Assembly: GCA_956465555.1 (NCBI GenBank)
Contig: OY101128.1
Coordinates: 496,001-560,000, forward strand
Origin: Nitzschia sp. pyKryTriq1
Lineage: Eukaryota > Bacillariophyta > Bacillariophyceae > Bacillariales > Bacillariaceae
Length of the DNA stretch: 64,000 nt
Direction of reading: 5' to 3'
Part shown: piece by piece, positions 34,769 through 62,555 of the stretch
How the letters are laid out: the number at the start of each line of letters is the position of its first letter
How positions within the stretch are numbered: the stretch's first letter is position 1
The notes under the pieces: generated by a model
The model's input: the letters and a program-made list of their open reading frames with translations, nothing else
What the model was told of the DNA's origin: nothing
Databases searched by the model: none
Translations under genes and position numbers: made by a program

Positions 34769-37700
34769 ATGGACTCGTCAACTCTTCAATCGGCGCGGTC
34801 CATGTCGCCAAAGCGAGTAGGCGGTGGACCTTCCGTTTTAATTGATGAGACGGGTATGGAAATCGAGATGGAAATGGATGCGAGTCTCTTTCCTTTGGAT
34901 TTGGCCGCATCTCCTCATAGCATAGCGTCTTCTCGCGCTAGAACCCCGGGCACAGGCACCGGTCGGGGTGGATACTTCTTTGGTGAGGATGACGACAAGG
35001 CTTCCATGTCTCTTCCATCGACTCCAAAAGTCGGTGGGGCCCTTCCTGAGGCACCGAGCCCTGCCTGGAGCGCTTGGAGCCCACGACCTGACGAACTGAA
35101 GCAACAACAACAAGAGGACCGGCAGGCCGAGAACGATAAGGAAGACCAAGCCGATGAGCCACGCAAGGCTGAAGATGAACGAGACAGCGCAGAGGAATCT
35201 CGTGATACTCGCACTACAAACTTGGTGGGATCCTCCGTCGAAGACGCATCTTATTCGTCTGCTCTACTTTCCGTTCTGCAGTCGCGAATTCACGAGCTGG
35301 AGGATGCCCTGGTCGAGAAACAGAAGCAGTCACCAGAAGATTCATCATCAGCCCAAGTATTTGAAGCTGGTCAGCTCTTTTCCTGTGCAGGCTTGGGTGA
35401 GCACATTGCAAACGATGCCACCAAGTGTCTCCCAACTCTGCCCCAGCACCACAGACGTGCCGAATCGGACGAGCGAATGGCTACTATGGAGCTGCAGTTA
35501 CAGGAAAGCAGAAAGTTCAATAAGGATTTGACGAAAGTTTGTGACTCATTGAATGTCGAGCTGCAGTTAGCCAAAGAGCGAGAGCAGACTTTGCTAGAAC
35601 GATTGGATGTCACTACAAGCCGATTGGAATGCATGATTGCTCCTTTGAATGAGCCTACATCTCCTAAGCAACAAAACGCGCCCCGTGGTGGCCGGCGTGG
35701 GAAACGAGAGAAGGCAGGTGTACTTGAAGACAAGGTGGCAAGCCTGGAACTTTCCAAGCAGCAACAAGATACGAATGTCGTGAAATTGCAAAACCAAATC
35801 GTCACATTGGAGACACAATTGCAGTCCGAACGCAACGAGAACAAATCCCTGAAAGCCCAACTAGGCGATCGGCCACTACGAGTACGAGCTCAATTGCACA
35901 GTGTTTCTTCTCAGGCACTTCAATACAAGATGCAAGTCGAATCCCTTCAAGAGCAACTTGAGAGCACTCGCAAGTCAAACCAGACAGAGCGCACCATGAT
36001 TGAAAGGGAGGCAAAATCCCGAATCAACGTTTTGGAAACGAAGGTGCATTTGAAGGATGGTCAGATTCAGTCACTGAAAAAAGATTTGGAGGCCAAGCAA
36101 GTACTCGAAGACCACGTGCGCCAAACTTCTGCAACTGTATTCGCAACAGAACGCGCTATGGCGAACGCCAAATGTACCGCCTTGGAATCGAATATCGAAA
36201 TGTTGAAGAACGAACTAAGCGAAGAAGCTGCCAGGTCCTCCGAGCAACAGGATCGAATCGAAACGCTTGAAAAGGAATTTTACAAGAGTCAGGAGACTAT
36301 TGGTTTCCAGAACACCAAGATCCAGAAAACGAATACTGAGAATGATAAGCTGAGACAAAAGATGCTCCAGTTATCTCAAGTCATTTTGAAGGTGTCCCGA
36401 GATATGCAACGGAATATTGATGCGTTGGAAAAGAAAAACGAAGATCTTCAGGACCGTCTGCAAGCGGAGCAAAGCGAGGAAATGAAATCTCAACGGGACA
36501 TCCAACGTCGATTAAGGCGTAGTCTGCGAGTGATGACTACAACGGAGCGTTCCATGGCTGAGGCACAGTGCTGTATTCTTCGGACGGAAATGGAGAGATC
36601 CGAAGTGGCGCTGGAAATTCTCCGTCTCCACGCTTCGGAACAAACAGCCGAGCTGCAATCATCCAAATTTGAGACGATTTCTCTGAGATATTTGGTTGAT
36701 GGACTTCATGAGCAGTTGCAATGTATGCTGGAGGACAAACTAGAACTCAGCAGTACTGTTGGTATATGGCAGAGTCGGGTGGAATCGCTTCAACGCTTGG
36801 TAAACACCATTTCTGGTGAAAGCAACCCTTCCATGCATTCTGCAGATCAGTCGAAGGAAAGCCAGGATCCCGAAGGGCCGTCTATGTGGCAAATCAAGGA
36901 GGCTGTCTCTCAGATTTCTTCATTGGAGACAGCGAACTACGATTTGCAAACACGTCTGCTAGATACCAAACAGAAACTATCACAGTCGCAGCTCAGGACC
37001 AACAATCTTGAAAAATCTTTGTTAAAAACCCAAAAAGAATTGGCAGCTTATCAATCAGACGAGCTGAAATTGCAGATGCATGCTCTTCAAAAGAATTTGG
37101 AATATGCTGTTAGCCAGGCTACGGAGTATCAAGACCAGATCGAAAGTCTCCGGACGGAGCTCCAAAGCACACGTGAAAGCAAAGAACTTGAGGTTGCCAG
37201 CATCCGCGAATCTCTCGAATCTCGCTTGCACGAAGCAACGTCTCTTTCTGATCAGATGCGCCAGGAAAATAATAGGCTTGGCGATGAAATTGCTCGATTG
37301 TACGAGGAGGTTGCTGGGAAGCAGGAGGTTGAGCAGCAACTTCGTCGAAGCTCTGGCGCCATGGTGGCTACCGAGCGGGCGAGGGCGACCGCGGCAAGCG
37401 CAGCGCTGGAATCCGAGCTAGCGCAAGCAAGGAAAGAGCGTGATGTGGCTCTGGACGAACATGATCTCAGTCAAAAAGAGAACAAAACTTTGAAGTCGAA
37501 AGTCGAGAAAACGCAAATCGAGAGCTACAAGCTGAGAAAAAAGCTACTCGAGCTGTCACAAGTAATCATCAAGATCTCGAGGCAGATGCAGGGCAATATT
37601 GATTCGGTCGAAAGAGAAAATGATGCTCTGCAAGCTGAAATCGAGGACGGTCAACAAGAGCAACGCACTGCAAACACAGAGATCCAAGATAAGTTGAAAC

Positions 37701-40700
37701 GTAGCGCCGCTGCCATGATTGCGACAGAACGCACAGCAGCCGAGGCCAAGTACACTTTGCTACTGTCTGACTACGAAACGCTTCAAGCTGAACTTCTGGA
37801 TCGGCTAGAGGAGAGCGAGAACGAGGTTATCGCCCAAAGATCTCTTGCCGAAGCAAATTATTCTACGCTGCTGGCGGGCTATGAATCGCTACAAGCCGAT
37901 TTTAAATCCGAGATCGATAGACGTGAAAATCTTGAATGCACGATCAACTCGCTGACAACGTCAAACGAAGAATTGAAGAGCCAGCTGGAGAACAGCGAGA
38001 AAGAGATGAGTATACTCAAATCCACGCAGTCCGTCTCTGCTAAGACTGAAGCGCGATTTGCAGCCTTGAAAGCAGAGCTAAGTTCGTTGAAGGATCGATT
38101 AGAGCTTGTTTCAAGTCATTCATCTCAGTACCAGAAGCAAATCGAATTACTCCAATCGGACCTTCGAGAAAGTAAGGACGCGGCCTCAGCATACAATGCC
38201 GTTCTTCATAAGAGAGACCAATTGGAAAAAGAAGTCAAGGCCTTGCAGGAAGAGATAACCTCGAGGAAAACGATAGAGTGTCAAATTACCCGAAGCTCTG
38301 CTACAATGATTTCGACTGAAAGAACCATGGCTGAAGCAAAATGCTCGATGATGGAGTCAGAAATCACGGATCTCCAACAGCAACTCAGTGCACTGAACGC
38401 GAAGGCATTTCAATACCAGAGCACTCTCGAGGCGGCTCTAAAGGATCTATCTTCGACGACAGCCAAGAATGAGGGCCAAAAGCGGAAGATTCACAAGATG
38501 AGCGACGAGAACAAAATCCTGAGAAACAAATTGCTGGAATTATCTCAAGTCATTCAGGTCGAGCTTCAAAACTCCCACACTGAAAACAGGGACCAGCTTA
38601 TGCGTATCGAAGCACTACACAAAGACAAGATTGAAGGAATGTCAGCTAAAAACCGAGCCCTTCGTCGCGAGAAACTCGCACTTGAGAAGGAAGTCTCTTC
38701 ATTGAAGGAAAGTATAGCTGTGGTCAAGGTTGAGTACGAAAACGTGATTGAGAGTCTAAGAGCAGAACTCTCCCAAAGCAAGGATGATAATGACAAGAAA
38801 GTTAATACTTTACATGATCTTGAATCAAAGAATAAGCAGCTCAAGACAAAATTGTCGAATTTATCTGAGGTGGTTTCTCAGCCATCGGGAGACATGCAGC
38901 AATCGGTTGAAGTGGTGATGCGGGGGACAGATGACCTTGCAATGGAGCTCAGTCTCGCACTTGCCGAAGAAAGAAATTCCAAACACGAAATTCAAACGCG
39001 CTTGCAGAGAAGTACGAAGACAATTATCGCAACCCAACGTGCGATGGTAGAGGCTCAATGCACATTTCAGAGGTTTGAAAAGGAATTCCGCGAAGCCAGG
39101 ATTGATCAGAGACAACACGAAGCTGAGATCGAGATAGTTTCACTGCTCGACGCCAAGATTGACCTACAGAACAAACTTCACTATGTTCAGAGTGAGCTCC
39201 ATTCACAGCGTCACATCTTTGAAAACGGTGTACAGGACTTTGAAGCCACAACATGTTCTAAGGAAAATGCTAAAGAAGACGCTCGTTCAACAGAGTTGCA
39301 CGCTGAAGTCAAAAAATACAAGCAACAACTGACGGAATTGTCAAGCAAACATACCAAATCGCTAGAATACCTGCAATCACTTCAACTCAAACTTCAGGAG
39401 GCCCGTGAACGCAGCAATGCTGAACTCGAAAGCATGAAGACATCGTACCAATCGCAGCTCGAAGAGGGAAATACCAAGGTCCAGAACATCCGACTCGAAA
39501 AAGAAGCTCTCGAAAGCCAGTTGAAAGTTTTATTGGATAGCAAGGACTCGTTGCAGGCTACGGAAGAGCAAACACGTCGCAATTTATCTGCTATTGTTGA
39601 TACCGAAAGGGCAGTGGCAGAATCCAAATATTCGGCTTTTGAATCTGAGATCGCTGAGTTACGTATGAAGTTACAAGATGTCACAGAAAGTGAGAGGACC
39701 CATTGCGACGAAAACCAATCTCTCAAGGCTAAGTTGGATACGCTTGAAACGAAATCTTCGCAAAGCATAGAAGAAATCGACAGCTTGAAGCTGCAAATCA
39801 AACTTACGACGCTAGAAAAGGAAGAATTGACGGAAAAGTTGGCTGAGCTTGCAGATAAACTTCGAACTGCTGAAGACCAAGTCGTTGCACTTAAAGATGG
39901 CGCGAATCAGCAGGCCAAGGCTAGCCAAACACGCATTGTTGAACTCGCCGACCAAAATGTGAAGCTCACGGATAACATAAATGATCTTCTTTCGAAGCAG
40001 AAGGATGCAGAGGCCACTATCACCTCCCTGCAGTCAGAGATTGATGCAAAGAAGGGCGACTTGGACCACACTCGTGAAGCCTATACAGCAAAACTGGGCA
40101 ATACATCGTCGCAAGTTGAGCTTTTCCAATGCCAGAAAGTTGAGCTTGAACATCAGGTTGGCACTTTGAGGGAGGAGTTGGCGGTACACGAGGAAGCTGA
40201 GAATCGTCTCCGTCTCGAAACAGAAAAGCTCCAAGAGGCCCTCAGTAGTACTTTGTCGAAGCAGAAGGATGCAGAGGCCACTATCACCTCCTTGCAGTCA
40301 GAGATTGATGCAAAGAACAGTGACTTGGACCACACTCGTGAGGCTTATACCGCTGTGCTGGGCGATGCATCGTCGCAGGTTGAGATCCTACAAGGCCAGA
40401 AAGTTGAGCTTGAACGTCAGGTTGGCACTTTGAGGGAAGAGTTGGCGGTACACGAGGAAGCTGAGAATCGTCTCCGTCTCGAAACAGAAAAGCTCCAAGA
40501 GGATCTCAGTAGTATTTTGTCGAAGCAGAAGGATGCAGAGACCACTATCACCTCCTTGCAGTCAGAGATTGATGCAAAGAACGGTGAGTTGGACCGCACT
40601 ATCACCTCCTTGCAGTCAGAGATTGATGCAAAGAACGGTGAGTTGGACCGCACCCGTGAAGCATATACCGCGCAACTGGGCGATGCATCATCGCAGATTG

Positions 40701-43700
40701 AGCTCTTGCGAGGTCAGAGAGACGAGTTTGAAAGTCTGGTTGGCACTTTGAGGGAAGAATTCGCCGCACACGTGGAAGCCGAGAAACGCCTCCGTGTCGA
40801 GACCAAGGAAAACATCGATAAGGAACGATTGAAGGCGGACGGAAGGTGCTCTGTATTAGAATCTGAAATCGCAGACCTAAGAACCGAACTCGATGGAACT
40901 GTGGCTATGGTTCAAGAACATCAGGAGCGAAATGACAATATTGAGATCGAACTCAAACGCGCGGAAGCTGACAACAAGGAAAAGCGGGGAACGATTCACA
41001 AGTTCCAAGCGCAAAACAAGTCTTTAAAAACGAAGCTCATGGAGTTGTCACAAGTTATCGGCCATCTCTCTCTTGAAATGGAACAGTCTGTTGATGGTCT
41101 GCGACAACAGAAAGACAAAATTCAGGCTGAGTTTGAGCATGACATCGCCAAAGAACGAGTCTCCAGGGCTGACATTCAGAGTCGCTTGATTCACTCAATG
41201 AAGGCAATGGTTGCGACTGACAGAGCGAAGGCTGCGGCAGAATCTACGTTTTTCAGATGCGATTTCGACCAACTTGAAGAGCAACGGAATCTTGAAAGCG
41301 CCCGTGTTACAATATTGCAACGCGAACTGGAAACTTTCAGGGATAGGGCGCAGTATCTTGAAGGCCTGTACGACGCGGTATCAAATCAACTGAAGACGAG
41401 CCATCAGAAGTTCGATGGAAGCAAGAACGCTGCAGAGACGCTATCTCAGAAGTTGCAGGCCCATGTGGACTCGCGGGATGCACAAAACAAGTACCTCAAG
41501 GCGAAGCTTGAATCCCAACACAAGGACTACTTGCAGCTACAAGAAGAATTTCAGAAGCACAACGTCGAACTTGCCCGTAGCGTCGAAGAGGTAGCAGCAA
41601 AACTCGAGCAAAAAGTCGCTGCACTGGAAGAAGCCTCCAAGCGTCAAGCGAAAGCAGATTCTCAAATCCATGCTCTGAACAGCTCCCTCTCGGAAGTTTC
41701 GGCGAAACTGAAGGACACCACGCTTCTTTACTCTGAATTGGAGACTGCCATGAAACAGACGGAACAACAGCTTCAGACGGCAACAGAAGAAGCTTTCAAC
41801 TCCAAATGCGAGCTTGAAACGACCCAAAGCACTCTCAACGAGGCTACTGATGCCAACAAGACACTCATGGATGAGCGTAGCAGTTTGCTAGTGCAGGTCG
41901 AGGAGCTATGCAATTCAGTTCAGCAACTCGAGAAATCAAACCAGCAGCTGCTCGCCGACATTGCAGCTGCGACAACTGAATTGCAGACCCGATCTGTATC
42001 TCATGAATCCTCTTTTACGGTTCTTTCGAACCAAGTCGCCGACGCCACGGCCCAGAATACAGTGTTGCAAGAGAAACTCCAGAAGACTAGTGAGCAACTT
42101 GGAAGTACTAAACGCCAGCTAGCACAAACAAATGAAATCCTCGAAACTGTTACGAACGAGAACAAGCTCTTCCAGCAACAAATCGAGGACATGAGTCAGA
42201 AGCTAGATGCTTCTCAATCTGCAAAGCAGGACCTTGATGAAGTATTGAAGAGACGAAACTTGGAGCTAGAGGAAAGCAAAGACCATGTTCGTGAGCTTAA
42301 AAAGAGACTTTCCGAACTTCAAGATGTGGCTGATGGCACTCTGGTGCAAATGGACGGTTTGAAATCAGCGAACAGAACAGAAATCGATCAGCTTCGATCA
42401 CTACTGGGCAAGCAACAAACGGACCTCGATTCCTCGCGAAAGGAGGCGGCTGATCTTATTGCTAAGATTGCTGCCCTGGAACCTGAACTGCAAACAACGC
42501 GAACCGACAAGGAGAATCTGGAACAGCAAATTGAAGACGCGCGTGGCGAAAATGCTGATTTGCAGCTTCTCCTGGAGAAGCAGGACGATCAAATTCATCA
42601 GTTTGAAGAAGATATTGCGGAACGCGACGAGCAAGAAAGGCTCAATCAAGTCAAATTCGATGGACTCAAGGAATCTCTGGCATCGGTGACTGGTATGCTT
42701 GAAGAGATGACTAAATCCAATTCTTCGCTTGCAGCTCGAGTCGATGAACTTGAAGGCGAGCTTCAATCAGAAAGGCAGTCGAAGTCAGCCGCATCAACCC
42801 AAGTTGATGAAATCCGTGCGCAGAACGCCCGTCTTGAAAACGAAATCACCAAGTTGGAAGTGGAGTTGGATCTTGTGCGTTCTACTGATCACAGCACGAA
42901 GGAAAAACTTGACTCTCTTTACCGACAAGCTGAAGAAAAGGAGCTGGCTTTGGAGAACGAAATCGACGAGTGCCGAAAGGAGCTCTTGGAGGAGAAGTCG
43001 GCAAACGGAATCCTGAAAGAGGTGATCGGAACCCTGAATGCTAAGAATAATGACCTCCAGGCTCAATATGTAAAGCTCAAACAAAAGAGATTTGGCAAGC
43101 TTACACGAGAACGCGATGATCTTATTGCAAATGAGAAGAAGCTCAAGATGAAGATCGATGCCCTGATTGTAGCAAATAAGCAAATCGAGAAAGAGGTGCA
43201 CAAGAAGGAACAGCGAAACCAATTGCTTGATGAAAAGCTATCCGAGACAAGGGCAACCGTCGTTGAATTGACCAAAGCTGTCGACAAAATGGCGAATGAT
43301 AACACTGCCAAGCTAGGAAGTGCCGACTCGCGAGAGGCGAGCTTAGCAAAGGAAGTTGTTGGGCTTCAGTTGGAATTGGAGACAATAAGGAGAAAATTGG
43401 CTCAATCGGAGGAAGGCTACGATGCTCTTGCCGTGGCGACAGAAGAGCTGAGTGTCGAGCTAGAAGCGTTGAAGCGAGCAAATCAAGCTCTTTTGGGCGA
43501 GAGAGATTCGTTGCGCCAAACAGTTGCCCAGGCGAAATCATTGAAACAGCAAATCCAAACTCTGACGGTGGAACGCGATGCTTTGCGTCGAGAGGTTGCC
43601 GATTCGAAGTCAGCAGTAAATGCACCCGGCAATTCAGAAGAGCTGGAAGCTGCAGTGGCTCGCAACAAATTGCTTGATGAGAAACTACGCGAGGCGGAGA

Positions 43701-44668
43701 ATGCGTTTACAGAGTTGTCCAGTGGCACCCATCAGATGCGAGAGACTTTCATCCGAGACTTGGAGCAATCCAACGCTCGGGAATCAAGTCTGGCTAAGGA
43801 AGTGGTTTCTCTTCAACTAGAAATCGAGAGCGCAAAAAGAAAGTTGACTGAATTGAAGTCGAACCCTCCACCAGCTGCCTACTATCAAAAGAAGATCGAG
43901 AAACTTCAAGCCGACGTGACCCACCTATCAAGGGAGAATCATTCATTGATCTCGGAACGTGACTCCTTCAGCATTACTAGCGGAAGGGCCAGCGTCAGTG
44001 AGAGGCAACGTCCTATGACCGCCAGAGACTGCAGAAAACAAGCCCTCGCCAGTATCAACGCGAGTTACAGCGAGTCGATTGCTGCTGATTCGTTCAGTGT
44101 CACAAGTGAAAAGCAACCTGCTCCCAACAACACGAACGCCAGAGGAGGCTACAGAAAACAGTCCCGCCCCAATGTCAACGCGAGTTACAGCGAGTCAAAT
44201 ATGGCTTCTGATTCCTTCAGCGTCGCAAGTGAAAAGCAACCTCCAATGACCGCCAGAGACTGCAGAAAACAAGCCCTCGCCAGTATCAACGCTAGCTACA
44301 GCGAGTCGATGGCAGCTGACTCGTTCAGTGTCACAAGTGAAAAGCAGCCTGCTCCAAACATGAATGCCGGAGGAGGCCACAGAAAGCAGTCGCTCCCCGA
44401 AATCAATGCGATGTACAGTGAGTCCATGGCTGCTGATTCTTTCAGCGTCGCCAGTGAAGTCAGTGAAAGGCAACATCAAGGGCCGATCATGGATGCCAGA
44501 GCCTGTCGAAAACAATCCCGCCCCGATCTTAGCAAGCGCCGTTCTCGTGCTGTCAAGTTCAACCCCAACAACAACAGCAGGCAGCAGCAAGCACGCACGG
44601 AAACCAGACAGGGGACCCGTGACTCCTTTTGGGAGGAGGACGAAATGGGGCCTCTGGACGAACGCTAA
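34769..44668 (+). CDS. Giant coiled-coil protein, about 3299 residues, with internal repeats
   Basis: A single intronless frame of almost 10 kb. The first ATG is 34,769 (MDSSTLQSARSMSP); the open frame extends upstream only from a GTG. Residues 1-150 are disordered and acidic. Most of the rest is Glu/Lys/Gln/Leu-rich coiled coil. A composite module recurs: an LELSQVI helix (near 36,370, 37,550, 38,535, 38,865 and 41,045) and a segment of form R-S-x3-M-x-x-T-E-R-x-M-A-E-A-K-C (nine copies between 36,125 and 41,250). At 39,989-40,780 there are 264-nt tandem copies. The C-terminal 180 residues are about 40-residue Ser-rich repeats (NASYSES, DSFSV). The length and repeats resemble golgin, centrosomal or cytoskeletal linker proteins; no motor or calponin domain is visible. 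Function unknown. Confidence 0.85.
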   Translation: MDSSTLQSARSMSPKRVGGGPSVLIDETGMEIEMEMDASLFPLDLAASPHSIASSRARTPGTGTGRGGYFFGEDDDKASMSLPSTPKVGGALPEAPSPAWSAWSPRPDELKQQQQEDRQAENDKEDQADEPRKAEDERDSAEESRDTRTTNLVGSSVEDASYSSALLSVLQSRIHELEDALVEKQKQSPEDSSSAQVFEAGQLFSCAGLGEHIANDATKCLPTLPQHHRRAESDERMATMELQLQESRKFNKDLTKVCDSLNVELQLAKEREQTLLERLDVTTSRLECMIAPLNEPTSPKQQNAPRGGRRGKREKAGVLEDKVASLELSKQQQDTNVVKLQNQIVTLETQLQSERNENKSLKAQLGDRPLRVRAQLHSVSSQALQYKMQVESLQEQLESTRKSNQTERTMIEREAKSRINVLETKVHLKDGQIQSLKKDLEAKQVLEDHVRQTSATVFATERAMANAKCTALESNIEMLKNELSEEAARSSEQQDRIETLEKEFYKSQETIGFQNTKIQKTNTENDKLRQKMLQLSQVILKVSRDMQRNIDALEKKNEDLQDRLQAEQSEEMKSQRDIQRRLRRSLRVMTTTERSMAEAQCCILRTEMERSEVALEILRLHASEQTAELQSSKFETISLRYLVDGLHEQLQCMLEDKLELSSTVGIWQSRVESLQRLVNTISGESNPSMHSADQSKESQDPEGPSMWQIKEAVSQISSLETANYDLQTRLLDTKQKLSQSQLRTNNLEKSLLKTQKELAAYQSDELKLQMHALQKNLEYAVSQATEYQDQIESLRTELQSTRESKELEVASIRESLESRLHEATSLSDQMRQENNRLGDEIARLYEEVAGKQEVEQQLRRSSGAMVATERARATAASAALESELAQARKERDVALDEHDLSQKENKTLKSKVEKTQIESYKLRKKLLELSQVIIKISRQMQGNIDSVERENDALQAEIEDGQQEQRTANTEIQDKLKRSAAAMIATERTAAEAKYTLLLSDYETLQAELLDRLEESENEVIAQRSLAEANYSTLLAGYESLQADFKSEIDRRENLECTINSLTTSNEELKSQLENSEKEMSILKSTQSVSAKTEARFAALKAELSSLKDRLELVSSHSSQYQKQIELLQSDLRESKDAASAYNAVLHKRDQLEKEVKALQEEITSRKTIECQITRSSATMISTERTMAEAKCSMMESEITDLQQQLSALNAKAFQYQSTLEAALKDLSSTTAKNEGQKRKIHKMSDENKILRNKLLELSQVIQVELQNSHTENRDQLMRIEALHKDKIEGMSAKNRALRREKLALEKEVSSLKESIAVVKVEYENVIESLRAELSQSKDDNDKKVNTLHDLESKNKQLKTKLSNLSEVVSQPSGDMQQSVEVVMRGTDDLAMELSLALAEERNSKHEIQTRLQRSTKTIIATQRAMVEAQCTFQRFEKEFREARIDQRQHEAEIEIVSLLDAKIDLQNKLHYVQSELHSQRHIFENGVQDFEATTCSKENAKEDARSTELHAEVKKYKQQLTELSSKHTKSLEYLQSLQLKLQEARERSNAELESMKTSYQSQLEEGNTKVQNIRLEKEALESQLKVLLDSKDSLQATEEQTRRNLSAIVDTERAVAESKYSAFESEIAELRMKLQDVTESERTHCDENQSLKAKLDTLETKSSQSIEEIDSLKLQIKLTTLEKEELTEKLAELADKLRTAEDQVVALKDGANQQAKASQTRIVELADQNVKLTDNINDLLSKQKDAEATITSLQSEIDAKKGDLDHTREAYTAKLGNTSSQVELFQCQKVELEHQVGTLREELAVHEEAENRLRLETEKLQEALSSTLSKQKDAEATITSLQSEIDAKNSDLDHTREAYTAVLGDASSQVEILQGQKVELERQVGTLREELAVHEEAENRLRLETEKLQEDLSSILSKQKDAETTITSLQSEIDAKNGELDRTITSLQSEIDAKNGELDRTREAYTAQLGDASSQIELLRGQRDEFESLVGTLREEFAAHVEAEKRLRVETKENIDKERLKADGRCSVLESEIADLRTELDGTVAMVQEHQERNDNIEIELKRAEADNKEKRGTIHKFQAQNKSLKTKLMELSQVIGHLSLEMEQSVDGLRQQKDKIQAEFEHDIAKERVSRADIQSRLIHSMKAMVATDRAKAAAESTFFRCDFDQLEEQRNLESARVTILQRELETFRDRAQYLEGLYDAVSNQLKTSHQKFDGSKNAAETLSQKLQAHVDSRDAQNKYLKAKLESQHKDYLQLQEEFQKHNVELARSVEEVAAKLEQKVAALEEASKRQAKADSQIHALNSSLSEVSAKLKDTTLLYSELETAMKQTEQQLQTATEEAFNSKCELETTQSTLNEATDANKTLMDERSSLLVQVEELCNSVQQLEKSNQQLLADIAAATTELQTRSVSHESSFTVLSNQVADATAQNTVLQEKLQKTSEQLGSTKRQLAQTNEILETVTNENKLFQQQIEDMSQKLDASQSAKQDLDEVLKRRNLELEESKDHVRELKKRLSELQDVADGTLVQMDGLKSANRTEIDQLRSLLGKQQTDLDSSRKEAADLIAKIAALEPELQTTRTDKENLEQQIEDARGENADLQLLLEKQDDQIHQFEEDIAERDEQERLNQVKFDGLKESLASVTGMLEEMTKSNSSLAARVDELEGELQSERQSKSAASTQVDEIRAQNARLENEITKLEVELDLVRSTDHSTKEKLDSLYRQAEEKELALENEIDECRKELLEEKSANGILKEVIGTLNAKNNDLQAQYVKLKQKRFGKLTRERDDLIANEKKLKMKIDALIVANKQIEKEVHKKEQRNQLLDEKLSETRATVVELTKAVDKMANDNTAKLGSADSREASLAKEVVGLQLELETIRRKLAQSEEGYDALAVATEELSVELEALKRANQALLGERDSLRQTVAQAKSLKQQIQTLTVERDALRREVADSKSAVNAPGNSEELEAAVARNKLLDEKLREAENAFTELSSGTHQMRETFIRDLEQSNARESSLAKEVVSLQLEIESAKRKLTELKSNPPPAAYYQKKIEKLQADVTHLSRENHSLISERDSFSITSGRASVSERQRPMTARDCRKQALASINASYSESIAADSFSVTSEKQPAPNNTNARGGYRKQSRPNVNASYSESNMASDSFSVASEKQPPMTARDCRKQALASINASYSESMAADSFSVTSEKQPAPNMNAGGGHRKQSLPEINAMYSESMAADSFSVASEVSERQHQGPIMDARACRKQSRPDLSKRRSRAVKFNPNNNSRQQQARTETRQGTRDSFWEEDEMGPLDER
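39989..40780 (+). repeat. 264-nt tandem repeat inside giant coiled-coil gene
   Basis: The phrase TCGAAGCAGAAGGATGCAGA begins near 39,992, 40,256 and 40,520, an exact 264-nt (88-codon) period. Copies 1-2 and 2-3 are mostly identical; the third is diverged beyond about 40,650. Inside copy 3, a 54-nt unit is doubled exactly (40,544-40,597 and 40,598-40,651). All periods are multiples of 3, so the frame is kept. Confidence 0.9.
43963..44530 (+). repeat. C-terminal 120-nt-class coding repeats of giant protein
   Basis: Five units carry RKQ-x-N-A-S-Y-S-E-S and D-S-F-S-V-x-S-E. They alternate in two types: type A has MTARDCRKQALASINASYSE (near 44,016 and 44,247), type B has GGYRKQSRP or GGHRKQSLP (near 44,146 and 44,373). 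The two A copies are almost identical at DNA level, so the last duplication was of an A+B pair. Confidence 0.85.
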
Positions 44669-45964
44669 GTGATGTATGTGGTCAGTGCATGCAATGACTA
44701 CACGTACATTTTTTAAACTCTCATTGCAACAGACCTTTACATTATTGCAGAACAAAAAATCCAAACATATTACAAAACATTAGCGACATGTCGTCGCTTC
44801 TTGTATCTTACTAGACTATTCATATTTTATGTACCACAGTTCTGTACTTTATACATCTTACTACTAGACTATACATATGTTATTTACCACAGTTCATACA
44901 TACACAGACTACTCTCTTTCTTTGGCCCACTATATCTCTACTCTCTACGAAATGCTATCATATTCTCTCAAGTATGTACTCGTAGCTACCGGTCCAAACG
45001 CTCTAGTAGTAGTACTAGTAGAGTAGTATAATATCTTCGATGATGATGATGATGATGATGATTATTCTTCGATCGAATCGTCCCAGGTCCTTCACTGCCA
45101 GCGTGCATCGCCCGAATAGCCATATACCCTCTACAGTACAGTACTACTACCGTTACGTAGAACAGCCGACTACTACTGTAGTAGAGGGACAGGGAAGAAG
45201 AATCTTCTTTTCTTTTCGGGGGCTATATAAAAATCGGAACCAAAGAACTCATGAAGTTTCCAAATTTTGATGTGCGAGTACATTCAGAAGCGTAGGATTC
45301 TACGCAAACTGGTAGTCGATCACTTGTGTCAAGTTCCAATCTGAAGTTCGGAACTGCTTCTTTGCGCATAAATTGTACCTTCGCGCACCGGGCCGGCATT
45401 CTGACACGGGCTTCAAGCGCACAAGACGAACAACAACTGGGTATAATAGTACCGGTACGCAGTACCAGTACAGTACTCGTATCAACCTCCGAGCAAGATT
45501 TTCAGAACTTCACCTCTCTACCAGTGTACTCGTAGAGAGTCTACTGGTACAGACAGCTGGTACAGTACAGTACTGTACTGAACTAAACTCAACTCCATCA
45601 AGTGAGAAGATACGGCCAGGAACGCCAACTGCCGATTTCTTTTGGGACAGAGTGGTGAATTGAAAACACTCATAGCATCGATCGTTCTTTCTACAGTAGC
45701 CATTTTCCCGGAGACACAGCAGACAGTACTCCTTGTAGAAGAGATACCATCAATCGATCTCGTTGCAGCACCAGCAAAATATACATAGTGTAAAACGTGA
45801 GTTTGTAGGACAGCACACTTATTCGATGCTGTGAGCTGTGCTTCCTTTGGGTTATTCTTTTGAAAACCAAGCTAACTTTCACGTTCTGTTCAGCATCGAC
45901 TTGCGCGGTTTTCTTTCAACTAGTAGCAGCAGTCACCACAAAACGACAACACAACATCATAATC
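44669..45964. other. Intergenic spacer; probable 5' UTR intron of next gene
   Basis: No supported gene. It contains a GAT microsatellite at 45,040-45,062 and an imperfect direct repeat (actagactat to taccacagttc near 44,811-44,845 and 44,868-44,905). GTAC-rich DNA lies at 45,440-45,600. A likely 5' UTR intron of the nucleoside transporter runs from GTGAGT near 45,799 to TTCAG near 45,895. Confidence 0.5.
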
Positions 45965-48156
45965 ATGACGGACGTTGAAAATCCAGATTTGGAGCCCAAG
46001 ACGGAAGGGCAAGAAGTTAGTAGAGAGGAATTGGAAGAGGGCACCGGTGGAGAAGAACCCAGCAAGAAAGATGTTATTGCGGCTCATCGATTGGATTCGG
46101 CGGATATCCGCGATCCCCACGCTGTCATTCACGGCGACGTCATCAAAGCGGATCCTGTGAACCCAGACGATCCGGACGCCCTCCCGTGGTTGAACAAGAT
46201 GATGAGTATGTTGTGGCTATTTGTGAAGGTTTCTTCGGCCCTTCTCCTTGTGGCATATCTTCTTGCGGCGTTCATCATCGACTTTAAGAGAGCTACTGCG
46301 CTCTTTGTGATCACTGTCACTGTGATCGTCTACAATATGTATGCGTACTGGGCCAAGCACAACGAAGAGAAGATGGACAAGGCCGAAGACGCAATCATCG
46401 AGTTCATGAAGAAGACAGACGCGGAGTGGAAGGCATCCGCTATGTTTTCGGGTGTCCTCATCCTCATCATGGTCATCATGATGGCAGTCACTGTTCGCGA
46501 TGGACGCAACATGGTTTCTCTGTTTGGAATGTTGGTCTTCCTCGCCCTCACCTGGCTCTTTTCGTGGAAACCTCACAAGGTCCAAATCCGTCCTGTCATT
46601 GGATCTACCTTTATCCAATTTATTTTTGGATACATTGTCATCCGTACCACGTGGGGTCTCGCCGCCATGGAATTTCTCGCCGATATTTTCACCACCTTGT
46701 TGGGGTACACGCTTGCAGGATCCAGCTTTGTCTTTGCGTGGTTGACCGATGGTTCATTGTACGGACGACCCTTCCAGCTGGCTCCTAATGCCGATGGAGA
46801 GGACATGGGGAGCTATGTCCTCGGTCCACCGTTTTTCTTCAGCGTTCTTCCTACCGTCATTTTCTTCTCTGCACTCATGTCCGTAGGATACTATATTCGT
46901 GCTCTTCCTTGGTTGGTCCGAAAACTGGGTAAGTCTCTTTCTTAGTACACACTTTCCTTGCTCAAGCCATGCTGAATGTTCTGATTTCCCGCCTCTTTTC
47001 TCAATCTTGACGATTCTTCTTTGCATTCGTAGGATACTTCTTGGGCATCCTTTTGGGTACCTCTGCCTCGGAGTCATTGTCGGCGGCAGGAAACATTTTC
47101 GTTGGACAAACCGAAGCTCCCTTGTTGGTCAAAGTAAGTACTGCATTAGCTACTTTCTGTAGTGTGTCTGAAGCCACACAATCCTCGTCTTGCATTCAAG
47201 AAAATGACACTCCATTCTATTACTGACGCACAATCCTCTTTCTCCATCCTGCTGCTCCAACTCGTCGTCCAGCCGTTTATGCAAGAAATGACCGATAGTG
47301 AGCTCCATGCGGTCATGACTGGTGGTTTCGCTACTATTGCCGGAAGTGTCTTTGGTCTCTACATCAGCTTCGGTAAGTCCAGTAAAGTGGAGTGGAGGCA
47401 AGTCCAGGCATAAAGGACCATCCATACTCCTGATTGATTGATCGTTGTTCCTAGTGCGCCACTCATCATTATTCTTATCATTCAGGTATTGATGGAGTCG
47501 CCATTCTCGCTGCCTCCATCATGTCGGCCCCTGCCGCACTTGCCATTTCCAAGATTGCCTACCCCGAAACAGAAGAAAGTCCCACTGCGACCGGAAAGAA
47601 GGGATCCTACCACATTCCTGACTCGGGAGATACCAATGTAGTCCACGCCGCCACCCAAGGAGCCGTGATCGGTACTCAACTGATGTTGAACATTGCTGGA
47701 AACCTTATTGCATTCTTGGCCATTATTGAAATGTTGGATCAGCTCATTATGTACTTGGGCGAACGTGTCGACATTGAAATCAGCTTTACGATTATCTGCA
47801 GCATCGTTTTCTACCCCGTGGCGTGGTTGATGGGCATCGACTCGGCGGACTGCCGTCAAATCGCCGAAGTGTTGGGTCTCAAACTCTTTGCCAATGAATT
47901 CGTAGCCTACGGCGTCCTGGCGTCCATCCAGTCCGAAATCAGTCCCCGATCGTACTACATTGCCTCGTATGCTCTCTGCGGATTTTCGAACTTTGGAAGT
48001 ATTGGAATCCAGCTGGGTGGACTCACTCCCTTGGCACCCAACAAAGGTGGATCTCTGGCCAAGCTTGTATTCAGTGCCATGATTGCCGGGAATACAGCCT
48101 GTCTCATGACTGCTTGTATCGCTGGTATTTTTTACGAGGAGAATTCTTCTCGTTAA
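45965..48156 (+). CDS. Concentrative nucleoside transporter (CNT/SLC28 family), four exons
   Basis: A sodium- or proton-coupled importer of nucleosides. Exons: 45965-46928, 47033-47133, 47273-47372, 47486-48156. The introns of 104, 139 and 113 nt all begin GTAAGT and end AG, and all joins keep frame; 611 residues, near the animal CNT length. The family hallmarks span the splice sites: [10 protein letters not shown] in exon 2, [20 protein letters not shown] in exon 3, and [20 protein letters not shown] in exon 4. The N-terminal 80 residues are acidic and cytosolic ([11 protein letters not shown]); about 10-13 membrane segments follow. The start at 45965 was chosen as the first ATG after the likely 5' UTR intron. 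Substrate range (purine, pyrimidine or both) cannot be read by eye. The next gene, on the same strand, handles a modified nucleoside base. Confidence 0.93.
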
Positions 48157-55533: not shown

Positions 55534-57434
55534 CTATCGACTGCCACTACAGACTTCGTCTAGTTGATCCGGAACAGTCATTTCCGTCAGCGAGGAAAGG
55601 CCCAAATTCCGGACATCCGACTCCATTTGGCCCAAATTGGTGGGGTTGCTCAAGTAGCTCATAAAAGCTTCATGGTAATCCCCCACAAAGTCGGGATCGT
55701 CCACACAAAACTCCCATTCATAAACCAATGTGATGCCATATGGATCATTAGGAGCGGTGCTGGGATTTCCAAAGCGAGTTTGAGAAGTCAGAGCCAAGGC
55801 GTAGTAAATCGCATTGGGTTGCAATTCCCTCCCGCCGCTATTGCACGGGCCTCCTCGGAGTGAGCAATCAGCCAAGGCCCGAGTAAAGCCAAAGGGGTCA
55901 AACTCCGGGACCATGGCCTTGAGGATGGCAAGAATGCCAGTCATCTCTGATTGTGACAAGCTGGCCCAATCGGTGGCGCTAGACAGCAATATATCTTGAC
56001 TGTAAAACCGACACTCACAAGTCAAACCATTATCACCTGGATAGAGTGGATTAACGGACGAACCACCGCCGGTGGGAACGGCTACTGGTGTGGTTACTGG
56101 GGCAAGTGTTGGTGCTGGTACTGGGGCAAGGGTTGGTGATGGTACTGGGGCGAACGTTGGTGCTGGTACAGGAGCGAACGTTGGCGCAACTACTGGCGCA
56201 AAGGTTGGCGGCACCACGGGAGCGAATGTTGGCGGAACCACAGGGGCAAAAGTGGGAGGTTCGACTGTACATGAATAGAAAGATGAAACGCAGAGTGTAT
56301 CATGTGAGAGCAATGAATTTGGGAAGAAAAGAAGTTTGGCATCCATCCAAGAGCAGCAAACTTAAAACTGATCAACAGATATGTTCTCACGTACCAGGAG
56401 TGAAAGTGGGTGGTACCACGGGCATGAATGTTGGCGCCGGAACAGGTTGGTATGTCGGTTCTCCCGACTCCACTGGTGCGTAAGTAGGGGGCATTACCGG
56501 TGTGAACGTTGGAGGCACCACTGAAAGCAAAAAAATAAGAGAGTGAGCATTGCAGTGTATTACCAAAAAGTAGTACCAACAAACAAACAGTAACCGAGAC
56601 TATTTTTGACGTACCAGGAGCGAACGTTGGCGCCACAACTGGAGCAAAAGTCGGTGCGTATCCTGGGGGTGGCGTTGTGAGAGCATCCGAAGACGAAGTG
56701 CCGCCGCCGCCTCCCAGGGCCACTCCAAGACCCACCGAGATCGCCACTGCTGCGATGAACATCAGGCATCCTCCAATGACCAACCACTGGAGAGGCACAG
56801 TTCGGTGGCCCTCATCTTTGTGTGCCACAACCACATTATTGGTGGGGTAGTCAAAGACTACTTCTGCCTCAAAGGCGACCGGCAGATTCTTTTCGCCATC
56901 GCCGCCCGCATCGGCGCCATCTGCGATATTATCATTGTCATCAATGGCAGGTACCTTTGCCTTTCCTGCAGCAGCGCCGCCTGCTTGCGACCGACGCAAA
57001 GGGCCTGCCACCGCAAACGATCCCGGCGTTTCATCGTCGACGTCATCATCATCGTCGTCGTCCTCATCGGGATAGGGCATGTTGTTCGCCAGCATGGATG
57101 CTCGAGCTTCGCCGGGAGCCGCCGCCGCAGACGTCCGAGGAACATTGTTGCTCTCAATCGACCCCCGGTGGTATTTCTCCCTAGTTGCCTGTCGCTTACT
57201 GCGGCGGGCTTCTCGGCGCGTTCCATCGGGAGGAGCCCCGGATCCCACCGTTGTCAAGCCACTGACTATAGACCCATTGCTCTCGCGACGGGCGGCGACC
57301 GCTCCAGGTTCTGTAGCTGGGGCTTCTCCTCGATCAGCTGGACGTACCTTGGACATGATGGTGGTTGGAGGACGTGCGACGACGTTGCCGTTGTTGTTGG
57401 CGGTGGGGCCGGCTGCAGGAGTCGTGGACGACAT
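55534..57434 (-). CDS. Single-pass membrane protein with PTFAP-repeat stalk (three exons)
   Basis: Exons: 57434-56615, 56520-56395, 56264-55534; introns of 94 and 130 nt, both GTACGT to CAG and both phase 1; 558 residues. N-terminal 215 residues are disordered, basic then acidic (DEDDDDDDDVDDE), likely cytosolic. One membrane span (about 218-242, WLVIGGCLMFIAAVAISVGLG). Then a stalk of PTFAPV/PTLAPV/PTYAPV units (more than ten) crosses all three exons; such Pro/Thr stalks are typical of diatom surface and wall-associated proteins and are likely glycosylated. The C-terminal 170 residues form a Cys-containing globular part (CECRFYSQDI, CSLRGGPCNSGG, EVCSGSR). Its function is unknown. The middle exon is 126 nt, a symmetric 1-1 exon made entirely of stalk repeats. 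Confidence 0.82.
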
Positions 57435-58386
57435 GTTCGTTTCTGGTTATAGAACTTGGAATGGATTGCTGTAGGGGGTTGCCTGCTTCGGTTCTAGTGT
57501 GTTCAGCCTTGTTGATTAGAGTCTATGGGTTGCTTTGAGAAAGTAGTCTAGCTAGTAGTGCAGTGTAACAAATTGAAAATGAGCGTTCTGTACGATCGAC
57601 GATGAGAACAACTCGCACGATAAAAAAAATTTTGTCGTCGTACAACAACTTCACAAGACCTGTTTCTGTGGTTGGTGCAGAGCAGAGTGGTGTGTGACAT
57701 GGCACGCTCCTCTGGGAACCTGGCGATGTGGTTTGGTTGGCACGACACAAGGCGTCGGGTGCAGAAGATCTAAACGGTCCAAAAATACATGGGTGTATTT
57801 ATAATTCCTTTGTCGTAGTATTGGAGAGGGAATGCAGAGAACTCCTAAATCAGGCATATATCGACTTACCGTACAATAGCCATTTCATGTCGCATACCTC
57901 TGTTGAACGGAAAGCAACACGCCGTTTCGCGCTGGATTTTCGGAGTTGCGCACACAATGCGATTGGACCTTTTAGTTCGCCCGGCTCACACCCACATGCA
58001 TATTGCTGGTACGTACTCGTACGTGACTGTCTGTAGCCCGTAGCCCACACCGGGCCCATACGACTGCGCCCACACCGTACCGGTACTGGTACCCTTGCTG
58101 GTACGAGAACATACGAGTAGCATACTACAGTAATGACGACGTAGACTCATCCGACTCAAAGTCGCATTTCGGTTTGAGAGGAGAAAATCATTATGCAATC
58201 TACATGGTCTAATGTTTCGGAATGATGGTTGCGCCAGGCGGGCATCTCGTTGGCGCTCACGTACTCGAGTATCGGTAGCAACGTCCATCGTGGTGATCTC
58301 TGACTGCGATACCCAGTACATTTCCTCTCATTTTTCTTTTCTACGAGTATTCCTCATCGTACGAATCAACAACTAACTATCGTGCC
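57435..58386. other. Divergent intergenic spacer
   Basis: No supported gene. It should hold promoters for the PTFAP protein (minus) and the RdRP (plus). GTACCGGTACTGGTACC-type words lie at 58,075-58,100. Confidence 0.55.
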
Positions 58387-61300
58387 ATGCCTACGCTTTT
58401 GGGTCGATTGAGACGCTCGTTAACGGGAAATCCCCGTGGACGTCGCTCGGAGCAATATCAGCAGACCGCTAGTAGTACTATCACTAGCCGGCCTCCCAGT
58501 AAAGTGTTGATCCCTACCAAGTCTTCCTCCGTGTCCTCGCACGAAGTCGTTTCACCTGTTAGTGTGTTCGATGTCGAGTATGAAAGCTTTGATAATAACA
58601 AGCAGGAATCGAATTGGATCACTAATCGAGAAGACAAGCAATATACTCAACACTCCCAAGCGAGTACGATTTTCTCCATGGGTGGCGAGGAGGAGCAGCA
58701 GCTGCCTCCATCTCAGCATCAGTTCTCTCAGGGTTCCAGCACCGCCACGACGCGGATCCAATGGGCGTCACCACCGACTGCTACTGCTATGAACAATCAT
58801 GATCCATTGGAGTCTACATTGCAATCAGAAGCGACTACGATCGTTTCAATGGTCGTTTCGCCAACGACGACTACTCGGAGAAACGACAACGAGTCTCGTC
58901 GTATTCCGCTTTTACAGATTAATGAAAACTTGCCTCCACCCAGCGCCAGCAAGTCTAGTAAATCATCAGTGTCGGCTGCGAGGAGTCGTCATCCTGACAG
59001 CACACATGCGTTTCCATCAAAGATCGTAACCCATGACGACAACCAGAACACTACATTCAGCATGACGGAAAGGACTCGTCACGAGGAGGAGGAGACGTCT
59101 TCCGATCATGATACTACGCAAACAACAAGATCGATCCATTTGGTATCTCCCAGTCAAGACATGGTGGCTCCATCGTCCGTCGCTCTGAATTCACAAAAGA
59201 GGGATGTATTGGTTGGCCAAGAGTTGTTTCGTTCTCAAAGAAGAGTGTATATTGAAAAGGGTGGCAACCGGCACAAGATGGGAACGGTACTTGGCACTAA
59301 GGATAGTCGGACATTAGAAGTCCAATTAGATAACGGAGCTGTGGTGGGTGTTCGGATGACAAGTGTTCGATACATTGACGATTCTGAGAAGACTGTGACA
59401 GAAACAAGCGAAGAAGCGTCATCGGCTGTTTCGACGACACTAGTTGTGGAGACGGACGATGAAAATGGTGAACCATCGACAGCGAGCAACGAGGAACAAG
59501 TGAAACCTCAGCCTAACAAGCCGACGAATTTCATCTCCAACGAAATCAACCGCAAGCCAAGCTCTGGTTCGAAAGCTCCTTTATCTGAAAGTTCCCACAT
59601 TGGTCGAAAAGTCCTAATCACCAAAGGCAGAAACAAAAATGCATACGCGGTGATTCTTGGAATGAAAACGAAGGGCATGTATGTTGTTGAATTACTCGCT
59701 AGTGGGAAAGAAGTGAAAGTCCGTGTCTCCAGTGTGGAATGTTGCGATAGTGGTGCGGTTCAGGATGATGCTGAGCCGGCCCGACGAGCACATAAGTCAT
59801 CGACCTCCGATCCTCGTTTGTACGAACCAGCCACCAAAGTTCAGTCGCCTAATGTGGACGCACTTCCTTGTGATGAAACTGTTGTTGCGGAGTCGAAGTG
59901 GCTACCTTCTCCGGTGGTCCAAGGATCCTTGGAATTGCAAAATACTTTGCAGCCTAGAAATATTAGCAGGCCATTCAAAAACTCCAAATCGAGCAACGAG
60001 CGAAGAAATAATCCTTGCAAGGAAAATGGCAAGTTGGTTGAAGTAATGCAGGGCCCCAACACTCGGAAGCGCGGCCGAATCATTGGTAAGAGCAATGCGA
60101 TCACATACAATATTGAGGTAAATGCCGATGAAATCATTGGAGTCAGAACAAGCAATGTCAAGATCCTCGGAAGTCAATACGAAAGTGGCATGGATGAGGA
60201 AGGCGATCAGGACGGCTCTCTATCTCAAAGAAGTAATTTCTCAAGACGAAGTAGGCGCTTCTTTCGAGTGCTCATGCCCAAGGATAGCTCTGGCAACCTG
60301 TTTGCGGGTTACAAAATCAAAAGAGTCCAGGTGGAGGGCTCGGTTAATGGACGCTCCAACAAGGCTGGAACAAACTTTCTGGATTACACAATTGGCGACC
60401 GTCTTCTTTCCCTTGACGTTGCAATGAAAGGTTCAAAACAAAAGAAGTTTTCTACCTCGTTAACACAAAATGGCAAGACCTACGAACTCATTTCTGCCAA
60501 AATCGAAGAGGACAAAGACTCGGGATTTAAATTTGGGAAGCCAAAGGTTGCGAGGTTGCTGTATGTGGATACATCCCACTGCGTCGATGGTAGCAGCTTC
60601 TGCGTGAAGGATTTTCTCTCTCAAATAGGAAATTTTTCGGTTTTGAATCCCCGAAAAATTGCCGCACGGTTGGAGTTGTTTCAAAGTCCCGCTCGGTTTG
60701 GCATTCAAGAAGTCGACTCCAAACATTTCTGTGATATCGAGGAGGAGGGGCACGTTGGCTGTGGTTTTATCGAAGAAGACTTTCTTCGTAGTGTTTGTGA
60801 GAAGGGTGGCCTAGGCAAATCCAAAGCAGCATTGGTGAGCGCAATTCAAGTACGCCTTTTTGTCCCCAGCATGGGCGTTTACAAGGGAATGCTGCAAAGA
60901 AAGCGGATAACTTCAGGTCCCGCGATCCAACTACCGCCGTCCATGAAAAAAGTTCCAGCATCATTGTCTGCGGGTGACAACAAGCGAGCTTTCATCGTTG
61001 TTTGTCAAGCTGGAATCCATCCTTCTCCAGGCAGCGCCAACGAGTTCATCGGAAGAAAGTTAGATTCCGACCGTGGAGATCATCCGCCCCCTGTCAAGTC
61101 CTTCACTGCAAAGATTAGCAAACCATTGTCTGATATGGTTCTTGATCTCTGGAAGAGTCTAGGGGTTCCTGAACGTGATATTCAGAACTATAAGAAAGAG
61201 AGCCTGAAACCAGATCGCCGAAATCATGCCTGGGTCGTCGGAGTGGCCGATTCAACAGGATCTCTGCCGCCTGATCGTATCTTTGTTCCAGGGATGGGCG

Positions 61301-61896
61301 GTACACAGCCTCAGGAGCTTTTTGTGACAAGGTCGCCTTGTTTGAAACATGACCACGGGCGACTTTTGAGAACCGTCAATTCTAAACCGACCAAAATGTC
61401 CAAGGAAGAGTGGGACGAGCTTCAATCGCTCCCGTTTGGTTCGATCATTTTCTCAAGCCCACGCAAAAATAAAATGTCAATGCCCGAACGAATTGCTTGT
61501 GGCGATCTCGATGGTGACTTGTATTTGATATGTTGGGATTCAATCATTCTTTCTCAGATGAAGGATGTAGAGCCGATGCAAGAGATTCCTATGGAAGATG
61601 ATGGCGTGCTTAAGACCGTCGCCCCAGACCCAAACTGGTTGGAAGCTGCTCACGGCATCATGACCGAAGCAGGCCCCACTAACGAATTGGGAGCCCTCGT
61701 TGGGGCTCTCTACAAGCTGTCAGAAAAGACTGCCAAGAAGTCGCCGCTTCACAAGAGAGATCCAGATGCCATTGCATATGCGGATGCCTACAACGAGGCT
61801 CTAGAATACAAAAAGCACGGCCGTCCGATTCAACTACCCGCTCACTTGGAGAAAGATATGCCGAAGAAACTTCGACACCTGATCAATTTTGTGTAG
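58387..61896 (+). CDS. Cellular RNA-dependent RNA polymerase with N-terminal KOW/Tudor-like modules
   Basis: An intronless 1169-residue protein. Eukaryotic RdRPs copy RNA into double-stranded RNA for RNA silencing. The C-terminal half (about 615-1100) has the family hallmarks: MGVYKGMLQRK (Lys833), then LFVTRSPCL (about 979-987), and the catalytic GDLDGDLYLICWD with the metal-binding triad Asp1040, Asp1042, Asp1044. The first 270 residues are disordered and Ser/Thr-rich. Three copies of a KOW/Tudor-like barrel follow at about 287-331 (VYIEKGGNRHKMGTVLG), 404-452 (VLITKGRNKNAYAVILG) and 547-595 (VEVMQGPNTRKRGRIIG), each ending in a V-R-x-S-V/N-V strand. These are unusual in RdRPs and may bind RNA or methylated proteins. 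This is a host gene, not a viral polymerase. Confidence 0.9.
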   Translation: MPTLLGRLRRSLTGNPRGRRSEQYQQTASSTITSRPPSKVLIPTKSSSVSSHEVVSPVSVFDVEYESFDNNKQESNWITNREDKQYTQHSQASTIFSMGGEEEQQLPPSQHQFSQGSSTATTRIQWASPPTATAMNNHDPLESTLQSEATTIVSMVVSPTTTTRRNDNESRRIPLLQINENLPPPSASKSSKSSVSAARSRHPDSTHAFPSKIVTHDDNQNTTFSMTERTRHEEEETSSDHDTTQTTRSIHLVSPSQDMVAPSSVALNSQKRDVLVGQELFRSQRRVYIEKGGNRHKMGTVLGTKDSRTLEVQLDNGAVVGVRMTSVRYIDDSEKTVTETSEEASSAVSTTLVVETDDENGEPSTASNEEQVKPQPNKPTNFISNEINRKPSSGSKAPLSESSHIGRKVLITKGRNKNAYAVILGMKTKGMYVVELLASGKEVKVRVSSVECCDSGAVQDDAEPARRAHKSSTSDPRLYEPATKVQSPNVDALPCDETVVAESKWLPSPVVQGSLELQNTLQPRNISRPFKNSKSSNERRNNPCKENGKLVEVMQGPNTRKRGRIIGKSNAITYNIEVNADEIIGVRTSNVKILGSQYESGMDEEGDQDGSLSQRSNFSRRSRRFFRVLMPKDSSGNLFAGYKIKRVQVEGSVNGRSNKAGTNFLDYTIGDRLLSLDVAMKGSKQKKFSTSLTQNGKTYELISAKIEEDKDSGFKFGKPKVARLLYVDTSHCVDGSSFCVKDFLSQIGNFSVLNPRKIAARLELFQSPARFGIQEVDSKHFCDIEEEGHVGCGFIEEDFLRSVCEKGGLGKSKAALVSAIQVRLFVPSMGVYKGMLQRKRITSGPAIQLPPSMKKVPASLSAGDNKRAFIVVCQAGIHPSPGSANEFIGRKLDSDRGDHPPPVKSFTAKISKPLSDMVLDLWKSLGVPERDIQNYKKESLKPDRRNHAWVVGVADSTGSLPPDRIFVPGMGGTQPQELFVTRSPCLKHDHGRLLRTVNSKPTKMSKEEWDELQSLPFGSIIFSSPRKNKMSMPERIACGDLDGDLYLICWDSIILSQMKDVEPMQEIPMEDDGVLKTVAPDPNWLEAAHGIMTEAGPTNELGALVGALYKLSEKTAKKSPLHKRDPDAIAYADAYNEALEYKKHGRPIQLPAHLEKDMPKKLRHLINFV

Positions 61897-62555
61897 CGTA
61901 CTTCACTTCATACTTGTACACGTGCTGTAGTACCGGTAGTACCTTGATTAGGATTACTTCCCTGTGTAGTTGCTTTTTAAATTGGACAATATGTTTTTTC
62001 ACTGCTTCAGGAATGAATAGATTCTCTACTCTCTACTAGTATTATAGTATTGTACCGGTACGATAAGTACATCAAAAATACAGTTGAGTGAAGGTAGCAG
62101 ACAATCCCCCCTCGTACGCTGGTATATCTGTGGTACTCGTACCAGGTACGAAGTACCATACTTGTAGACTACAGTACCGCTGGTACAGGTACAAGTACCA
62201 GGTACAGTACTGGCAAGGATAACGGTACAGGTACTACTGGTACCTGTACCCGGTACCGGTACTTTTATGATCTCATCGGAGTACAAAAATAGCATTCGTC
62301 GTGCGTGCATGTGTGCGGCGTAGACTCCATGTACGACTACTACGATTCTGTCACCTTCTCACATCACACATCACCCGTACCCGTTATCGCGCACCATGAC
62401 GTCATGCACTTCGAATTTCATGCGTTGGATCCAGGTATATAATATTCATGTCTGTAGGTTGTACAATGGTAGTGTCTGGATGTCACAATTTCAGTTTTGC
62501 AGAAATTTCATTTTGTTGCCCACACTATTTTTGCAAATCTACCTTCGGAACAACC
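61897..62555. other. Intergenic spacer, very GTAC-rich
   Basis: No supported gene. 62,110-62,265 is dense in GTAC (RsaI-type) words (for example GGTACAGGTACAAGTACC and ACCCGGTACCGGTAC). Confidence 0.6.

Follow-up and report, generated by a model that had tools for sequence, protein, structure and literature searches.

Introduction

The enzymes closest to the one described here are cellular RdRPs of the RNA-silencing type with solved structures. According to the published account of plant RDR2, neck 3 and then the head come after the bridge helix and trigger loop; plant mutants show the head to be needed while its function is described as unclear, and nonsense mutations in the head disrupt silencing even when just the last 51 residues are lost (PMC8713982). 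In Neurospora QDE-1, residue 1162 marks the start of neck helix 3 and residue 1196 that of the main part of the head (PMC1750930). Plant RDR2 is reported in a stable complex with Pol IV, and the KOW5 domains of KTF1 and SPT5 are reported to dock near the RNA exit of Pol V and Pol II, respectively (PMC10229537).

RdRPs with added N-terminal modules are already known, either an RRM (PMC8713982) or a helicase, the latter in fusions described from peronosporomycete oomycetes, Dictyostelium, Hydra, and Nematostella (PMC4791657). An earlier note on this DNA had stated that plant, fungal, and nematode RdRPs usually carry RRM-like or no such N-terminal domains, which is incomplete in view of these helicase-RdRP fusions. 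Diatom RdRPs are also known, with one gene given for Phaeodactylum and two for Thalassiosira (PMC3145265), and several putative diatom enzymes mentioned elsewhere (PMC4247016). No KOW-RdRP fusion was found among the papers listed in searches of an open-licence library, judged by title and start of abstract.

The locus and its surroundings

We analysed a stretch of 64,000 nucleotides, referred to as the window, which contains one long ORF joining predicted KOW-type modules to an RdRP. Its features are as follows.

58387-61896, + strand: KOW-RdRP gene, an uninterrupted ORF of 1169 aa, with an N-terminal arm bearing three KOW-type modules (by predicted fold and homology), then a cellular RdRP
58387-59235, + strand: N-terminal arm, residues 1-283, S/T/Q/N-rich in composition, without a Pfam match
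59236-59382, + strand: module K1, residues 284-332, predicted KOW-type SH3-like barrel (repeat alignment, profile, predicted structure, Foldseek)
59596-59742, + strand: module K2, residues 404-452, from repeat alignment and profile, with weak Pfam KOW5_SPT5 and KOW matches below cut-off
60025-60174, + strand: module K3, residues 547-596, from repeat alignment and profile, about 20 residues N-terminal to the RdRP domain
60238-60963, + strand: slab-like region and DPBB1 (residues 618-859, matching positions 23-225 of the Pfam profile), with Q821, K833, and K854/855
61228-61866, + strand: region of DPBB2, bridge helix, and trigger loop (residues 948-1160, matching positions 346-544 of 582 in the Pfam profile)
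61504-61518, + strand: catalytic aspartate loop DLDGD, residues 1040-1044, sequence motif
61867-61896, + strand: last residues (1161-1169) and stop codon of the ORF, the site where neck helix 3 and the head of QDE-1/RDR2 would start, both absent

The ATG at 58387 is the first start codon downstream of the preceding stop. The stop-free stretch around the gene (58297-61896) spans 1199 codons, against a maximum of 240 in 200 mononucleotide shuffles. The N-terminal half of the protein is mostly of low complexity and contains the three modules, which are separated by linkers of about 70 and about 95 residues. Judging from their composition, residues 1-283 are probably disordered.

Four of the 10 neighbouring ORFs scanned match Pfam at E 0.001 or better, namely a HCO3- transporter (PF00955, E 3.6e-117), DUF6824 (E 9e-17), a queuosine salvage protein, and the N-terminus of a nucleoside transporter. 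DUF6824 is typical of diatoms, and the neighbouring genes fit a eukaryotic alga, probably a diatom. For the nucleoside transporter, the PF01773 match covers residues 222-293 within a 361-aa ORF at 45860-46945 (+), and a following exon presumably encodes the rest. Elsewhere in the window, a 3318-codon ORF at 34712-44668 (+) looks, by eye, coiled-coil-like and internally repetitive. Two other regions gave no Pfam match at E 0.001: a 1113-aa ORF at 11593-14934 (-), and two overlapping ORFs at 55534-57434 (-) that contain PTFAPV-type repeats as well as a probable membrane segment and are perhaps one gene with an intron. The palindrome GTAC occurs 11.0 times per kb outside 20 chosen ORF intervals (239 in 21629 bp), four times denser than the 2.6 per kb inside them (111 in 42371 bp), ORF 26470-27318 being left out of the intervals. 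Clusters of GTAC flank the RdRP gene on both sides (57990-58110 and 61897-62440).

A cellular RdRP core in the C-terminal half

The C-terminal half of the protein is a cellular RdRP, matching PF05183 in two stretches with an E value of 2.8e-31 and 109.3 bits against a gathering score of 23.8. Taken alone, residues 602-878 match profile positions 23-225 (E 1.3e-12) and residues 879-1169 match positions 346-544 of 582 (E 5e-19). Residues 602-778 alone gave no PF05183 match, and the last 109 residues alone scored below the cut-off. KGML lies at residues 833-836, TRSPCL begins at 981, and DLDGD is at 1040-1044; the family match bears out the earlier identification of an RdRP from these three motifs.

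The invariant residues Q736, K743, and K767 of QDE-1 and its catalytic aspartates D1007, D1009, and D1011 (PMC1750930) have counterparts here in Q821, K833, K854 or K855, and D1040, D1042, and D1044. In RDR2, the trigger-loop residue K923 has been suggested to match in function a histidine of Pol II in contact with incoming NTPs (PMC8713982), and K1143 aligns with it by manual count on the alignment to solved chains. The spacing differs in places: the Gln-to-Lys distance in DPBB1 is 12 residues here versus 7 in QDE-1 and the maize chain, and the connector between DPBB1 and DPBB2, measured between the motif-3 Lys and the first Asp, is 186 residues here versus 240 in QDE-1 and 220 in the maize chain.

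When solved chains were searched, RDR2 from Arabidopsis and others was matched at E values of 2.8e-5 to 8e-5 and QDE-1-type chains weakly at 0.24 to 0.39, with two unrelated chains below them at 0.51 and 1.3. We take the RDR2 chains other than those of Arabidopsis, including 7w84, to be maize RDR2. A single-sequence AlphaFold model of residues 270-1169 folded only K1 (mean pLDDT 33). As it is uninformative outside K1, no statement on the DPBB fold or the head is based on it.

Three mutually related modules with a predicted KOW-type fold

K1, K2, and K3 are mutually related modules of about 48 residues each. Local alignment scores were 64 for K1-K2 and 67 for K1-K3, each reached in 0 of 2000 shuffles, and 40 for K2-K3, reached in 7 of 2000. 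Leave-one-out profiles recovered every module, with iE values of 1.1e-5, 1.3e-3, and 0.02 for K1, K2, and K3 (Z=1000). Against the 952 stop-to-stop ORFs of at least 40 aa in the window, the three-module profile gave its next-best match at E 0.75, and the best of 952 shuffled ORFs reached E 2.8. The modules had been proposed as three repeats with a K/Q-G-x-N and a G-V/I-x-G element. The repeats themselves and K/Q-G-x-N stand in all three cases (KGGN, KGRN, and QGPN), while the later glycine of the second element is found in two of the three, module 2 having an alanine instead.

With K2 and K3 supplied as the alignment, AlphaFold predicted for K1 a five-strand SH3-like barrel with a pLDDT of 81 (strands 8-11, 20-26, 31-36, 41-45, and 49-52, the last of them preceded by a short helical turn). 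In the single-sequence model, strands in the K1 region had block pLDDT values of 57-80 and the rest was unusable. Foldseek against the PDB gave no match for the K1 model at E <= 0.001; the first-ranked structure was SPT5 KOW5 (E 2e-3, prob 1.00, TM-score normalised by target 0.82). The best 50 of 1576 matches at E<=10 comprised 13 SPT5/DSIF (9 assigned from the title and 4 from the chain letter in entries for Pol II), 3 NusG, 4 OapB, 29 ribosomal chains, and 1 Sla1 SH3. The ribosomal chains are probably mostly eL14, which we take to be a KOW-fold protein.

Searching the PDB with the module profile aligned eS4 over positions 4-57 of 59 (E 0.026), in a region that we assume to be its KOW domain. 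The other matches included eS4 and IF-1 alongside unrelated proteins, and the top one, a pilin T-antigen (0.00043), was discarded as two partial stretches with an i-Evalue of 4.9 each. No module reached a Pfam gathering score, KOW scoring 12.7-14.5 bits against 22.3. For K2, KOW gave 12.9 bits against 22.3 and KOW5_SPT5 14.8 against 27. KOW was not among the Pfam matches listed for K1 or K3. The sub-threshold Pfam matches of K1 were SH3_KIN17_C and Tudor_3 (E 0.11), both barrels of this kind, and GatD_N, which is not; K3 matched a KH domain, not a barrel of this kind either. NCBIfam returned chance-level matches only (DpdE, Por_Secre_tail, arCOG04150 KH, and PRK13763.1-3).

Since the Pfam KOW matches are below threshold, the KOW assignment rests on the fold; and since the single-sequence run folded K1 alone, the barrel fold of K2 and K3 is assigned by homology to K1. 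The modules thus appear to be KOW-type by predicted fold rather than members of the Pfam KOW family.

The earlier note had left open whether the barrels are of the KOW or the Tudor kind. Readers of methylated histone or Argonaute tails, of Tudor or Agenet type, would share the SH3-like fold generally, and the weak, sub-threshold Tudor_3 match to K1 points the same way. However, Tudor methyl readers have an aromatic cage, and the three modules contain no W and no F, with 2, 2, and 1 Y in K1, K2, and K3, so that such a cage is unlikely; in addition, the nearest folds among the best 50 Foldseek matches of the 1576 are mostly KOW-type proteins. The Tudor reading was accordingly rejected as very improbable. 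Agenet, for which there was no Pfam match, was also set aside. Of the checks suggested earlier, the profile search thus gave KOW and Tudor_3 below threshold and nothing for Agenet, and structure prediction gave the expected barrel for K1, with nothing usable for K2 and K3 in the single-sequence run. What stands of the original reading is a KOW-like barrel, modelled for K1 and extended by homology to the other two.

Apparent absence of the C-terminal head

From the first catalytic aspartate to the C-terminus there are 129 residues here, compared to 395 in QDE-1 (to residue 1402) and 303 in two RDR2 chains, the RDR2 figure being derived from residue numbers and chain lengths given with the alignment. 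The protein ends 26 residues past the trigger-loop lysine. The ORF has nothing that corresponds to neck helix 3 or the main head in QDE-1/RDR2, and no continuation was seen downstream, so the enzyme seems, from its sequence, to lack the usual head domain, a feature on which the earlier note had not remarked.

A spliced or displaced 3' exon encoding neck 3 and the head would make this an incomplete gene model. The stop codon is followed by about 550 GTAC-rich bases in which every forward frame is interrupted by stops, and the next ORF (from 62448) reads as coiled-coil-like and has no Pfam match at E 0.001. A single frameshift therefore does not explain the loss of the head, and we consider an incomplete model improbable.

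The short C-terminus and the wider Gln-to-Lys spacing in DPBB1 could also mark a degenerating or non-polymerising RdRP that has lost its head and whose N-terminal half reflects drift within a low-complexity arm. Against this, the trigger-loop lysine is retained, as are those invariant catalytic residues that were checked, the frame is open over 1169 codons, and a common pattern is kept in three modules; decay of this kind seems to us about as improbable as a missing exon. The absence of the head, whose truncation disrupts silencing in plants, argues against full function. On the sequence evidence, we tentatively regard the protein as a cellular, silencing-type RdRP that is capable of catalysis and whose arm docks on a partner, activity, silencing role, and docking being judged together and falling somewhat short of probable.

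Proposed role of the KOW arm

In the account that we favour, with the same reserve, an active RdRP would use a KOW docking arm to deliver nascent RNA. The enzyme would copy single-stranded RNA into double-stranded RNA, and its long, presumably flexible N-terminal arm with three KOW barrels would most likely dock it on an RNA-bearing machine. The first candidate for this machine is an elongating RNA polymerase, contacted on its RNA-exit side, and an RNP is the alternative; in either case, the partner is a candidate suggested by analogy. The nascent RNA would then pass to the slab/DPBB cleft, and the arm may partly compensate for the absent head. A tether to transcription elongation, as the earlier note had proposed, is plausible by analogy with KOW5 of SPT5 and KTF1.

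KOW domains of this shape either bind RNA, for example in ribosomal proteins, or dock on a polymerase close to the RNA exit. The barrels might instead bind the template RNA themselves, with no polymerase or RNP partner involved, much like the N-terminal RRM of RDR2, which is described as binding single-stranded RNA and as a proposed determinant of the template path (PMC8713982). All three modules have an excess of basic residues, with 9, 10, and 8 K+R versus 6, 3, and 4 D+E in K1, K2, and K3, and the near folds among the best 50 of the 1576 Foldseek matches include 29 ribosomal chains and 4 OapB, some with its RNA, both in keeping with direct binding. However, the closest single fold is SPT5 KOW5, a polymerase-docking domain, and the long linkers are as compatible with docking as with a rigid template channel. 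Docking is favoured over RNA binding alone because of this closest fold and the long linkers between modules. RNA binding alone, possible though somewhat doubtful, is a close rival, and either reading is compatible with an arm delivering RNA to the cleft.

A more specific version of the docking account, which we think unlikely, would have one chain unite the roles of KTF1/SPT5L and RDR2, with a KOW array on the RNA-exit side of an elongating polymerase joined to a headless RdRP, the head having been given up since the polymerase or the KOW arm guides the template. If true, dsRNA would be synthesised co-transcriptionally off Pol II in an alga, where Pol IV need not be present.

We regard the finding as real and the KOW reading as mostly right, the functional account being what we infer from them. 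A KOW front combined with an absent head would point to RNA being supplied to the enzyme in another manner. With KOW barrels built in, an RdRP would be a testable candidate for how RNA gets selected, and a working headless RdRP would test what the head is for.

Comparison with known systems

Searches for relatives in viral contigs (with the RdRP core, the whole protein, and two alignments, one of them of the modules), prokaryotic genome contigs, and phages (tblastn) found none; covering viral, prokaryotic, and phage collections, they say nothing about eukaryotic conservation. The RdRPs of Phaeodactylum and Thalassiosira are likewise diatom enzymes, compared here by gene number. Helicase-RdRPs also join an added N-terminal module to an RdRP, but the module is a DEAD-box helicase and not KOW barrels (PMC4791657).

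Plant RDR2 shares with the present protein the RdRP core, DLDGD, the bridge-helix and trigger-loop region, and an N-terminal nucleic-acid-binding region before the slab. The two differ at both ends: the front of RDR2 is described as an RRM, a beta-barrel-like domain, and a four-helix bundle, where three KOW-type modules are predicted here, and its rear as neck 3 and head, where no head was found here (PMC8713982). Pfam scans of the protein gave no N-terminal RRM of the plant RDR kind. Neurospora QDE-1 has the catalytic invariants Q, K, K, D, D, D in common with it, but its connector between the two DPBBs is longer (240 versus 186 residues) and D1007 is followed by 395 residues with flap, neck, head, and dimer contacts, as against 129 after D1040.

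SPT5 and KTF1/SPT5L, whose KOW domains are the nearest folds to the predicted structure of K1, have several KOWs per chain. KTF1 acts in RNA-directed DNA methylation and features a GW/WG Argonaute hook; the 1169 aa of the present protein contain no GW or WG, and an Argonaute-hook role was rejected on that ground. The NGN domain of SPT5/KTF1 was not among the three families listed in the Pfam scan of residues 1-618 at E up to 10. Unlike in SPT5/KTF1, the KOW-type modules are here joined to a polymerase. Taken together, an RdRP with KOW-type barrels and no head appears to be a variant of a known enzyme rather than a new kind of system.
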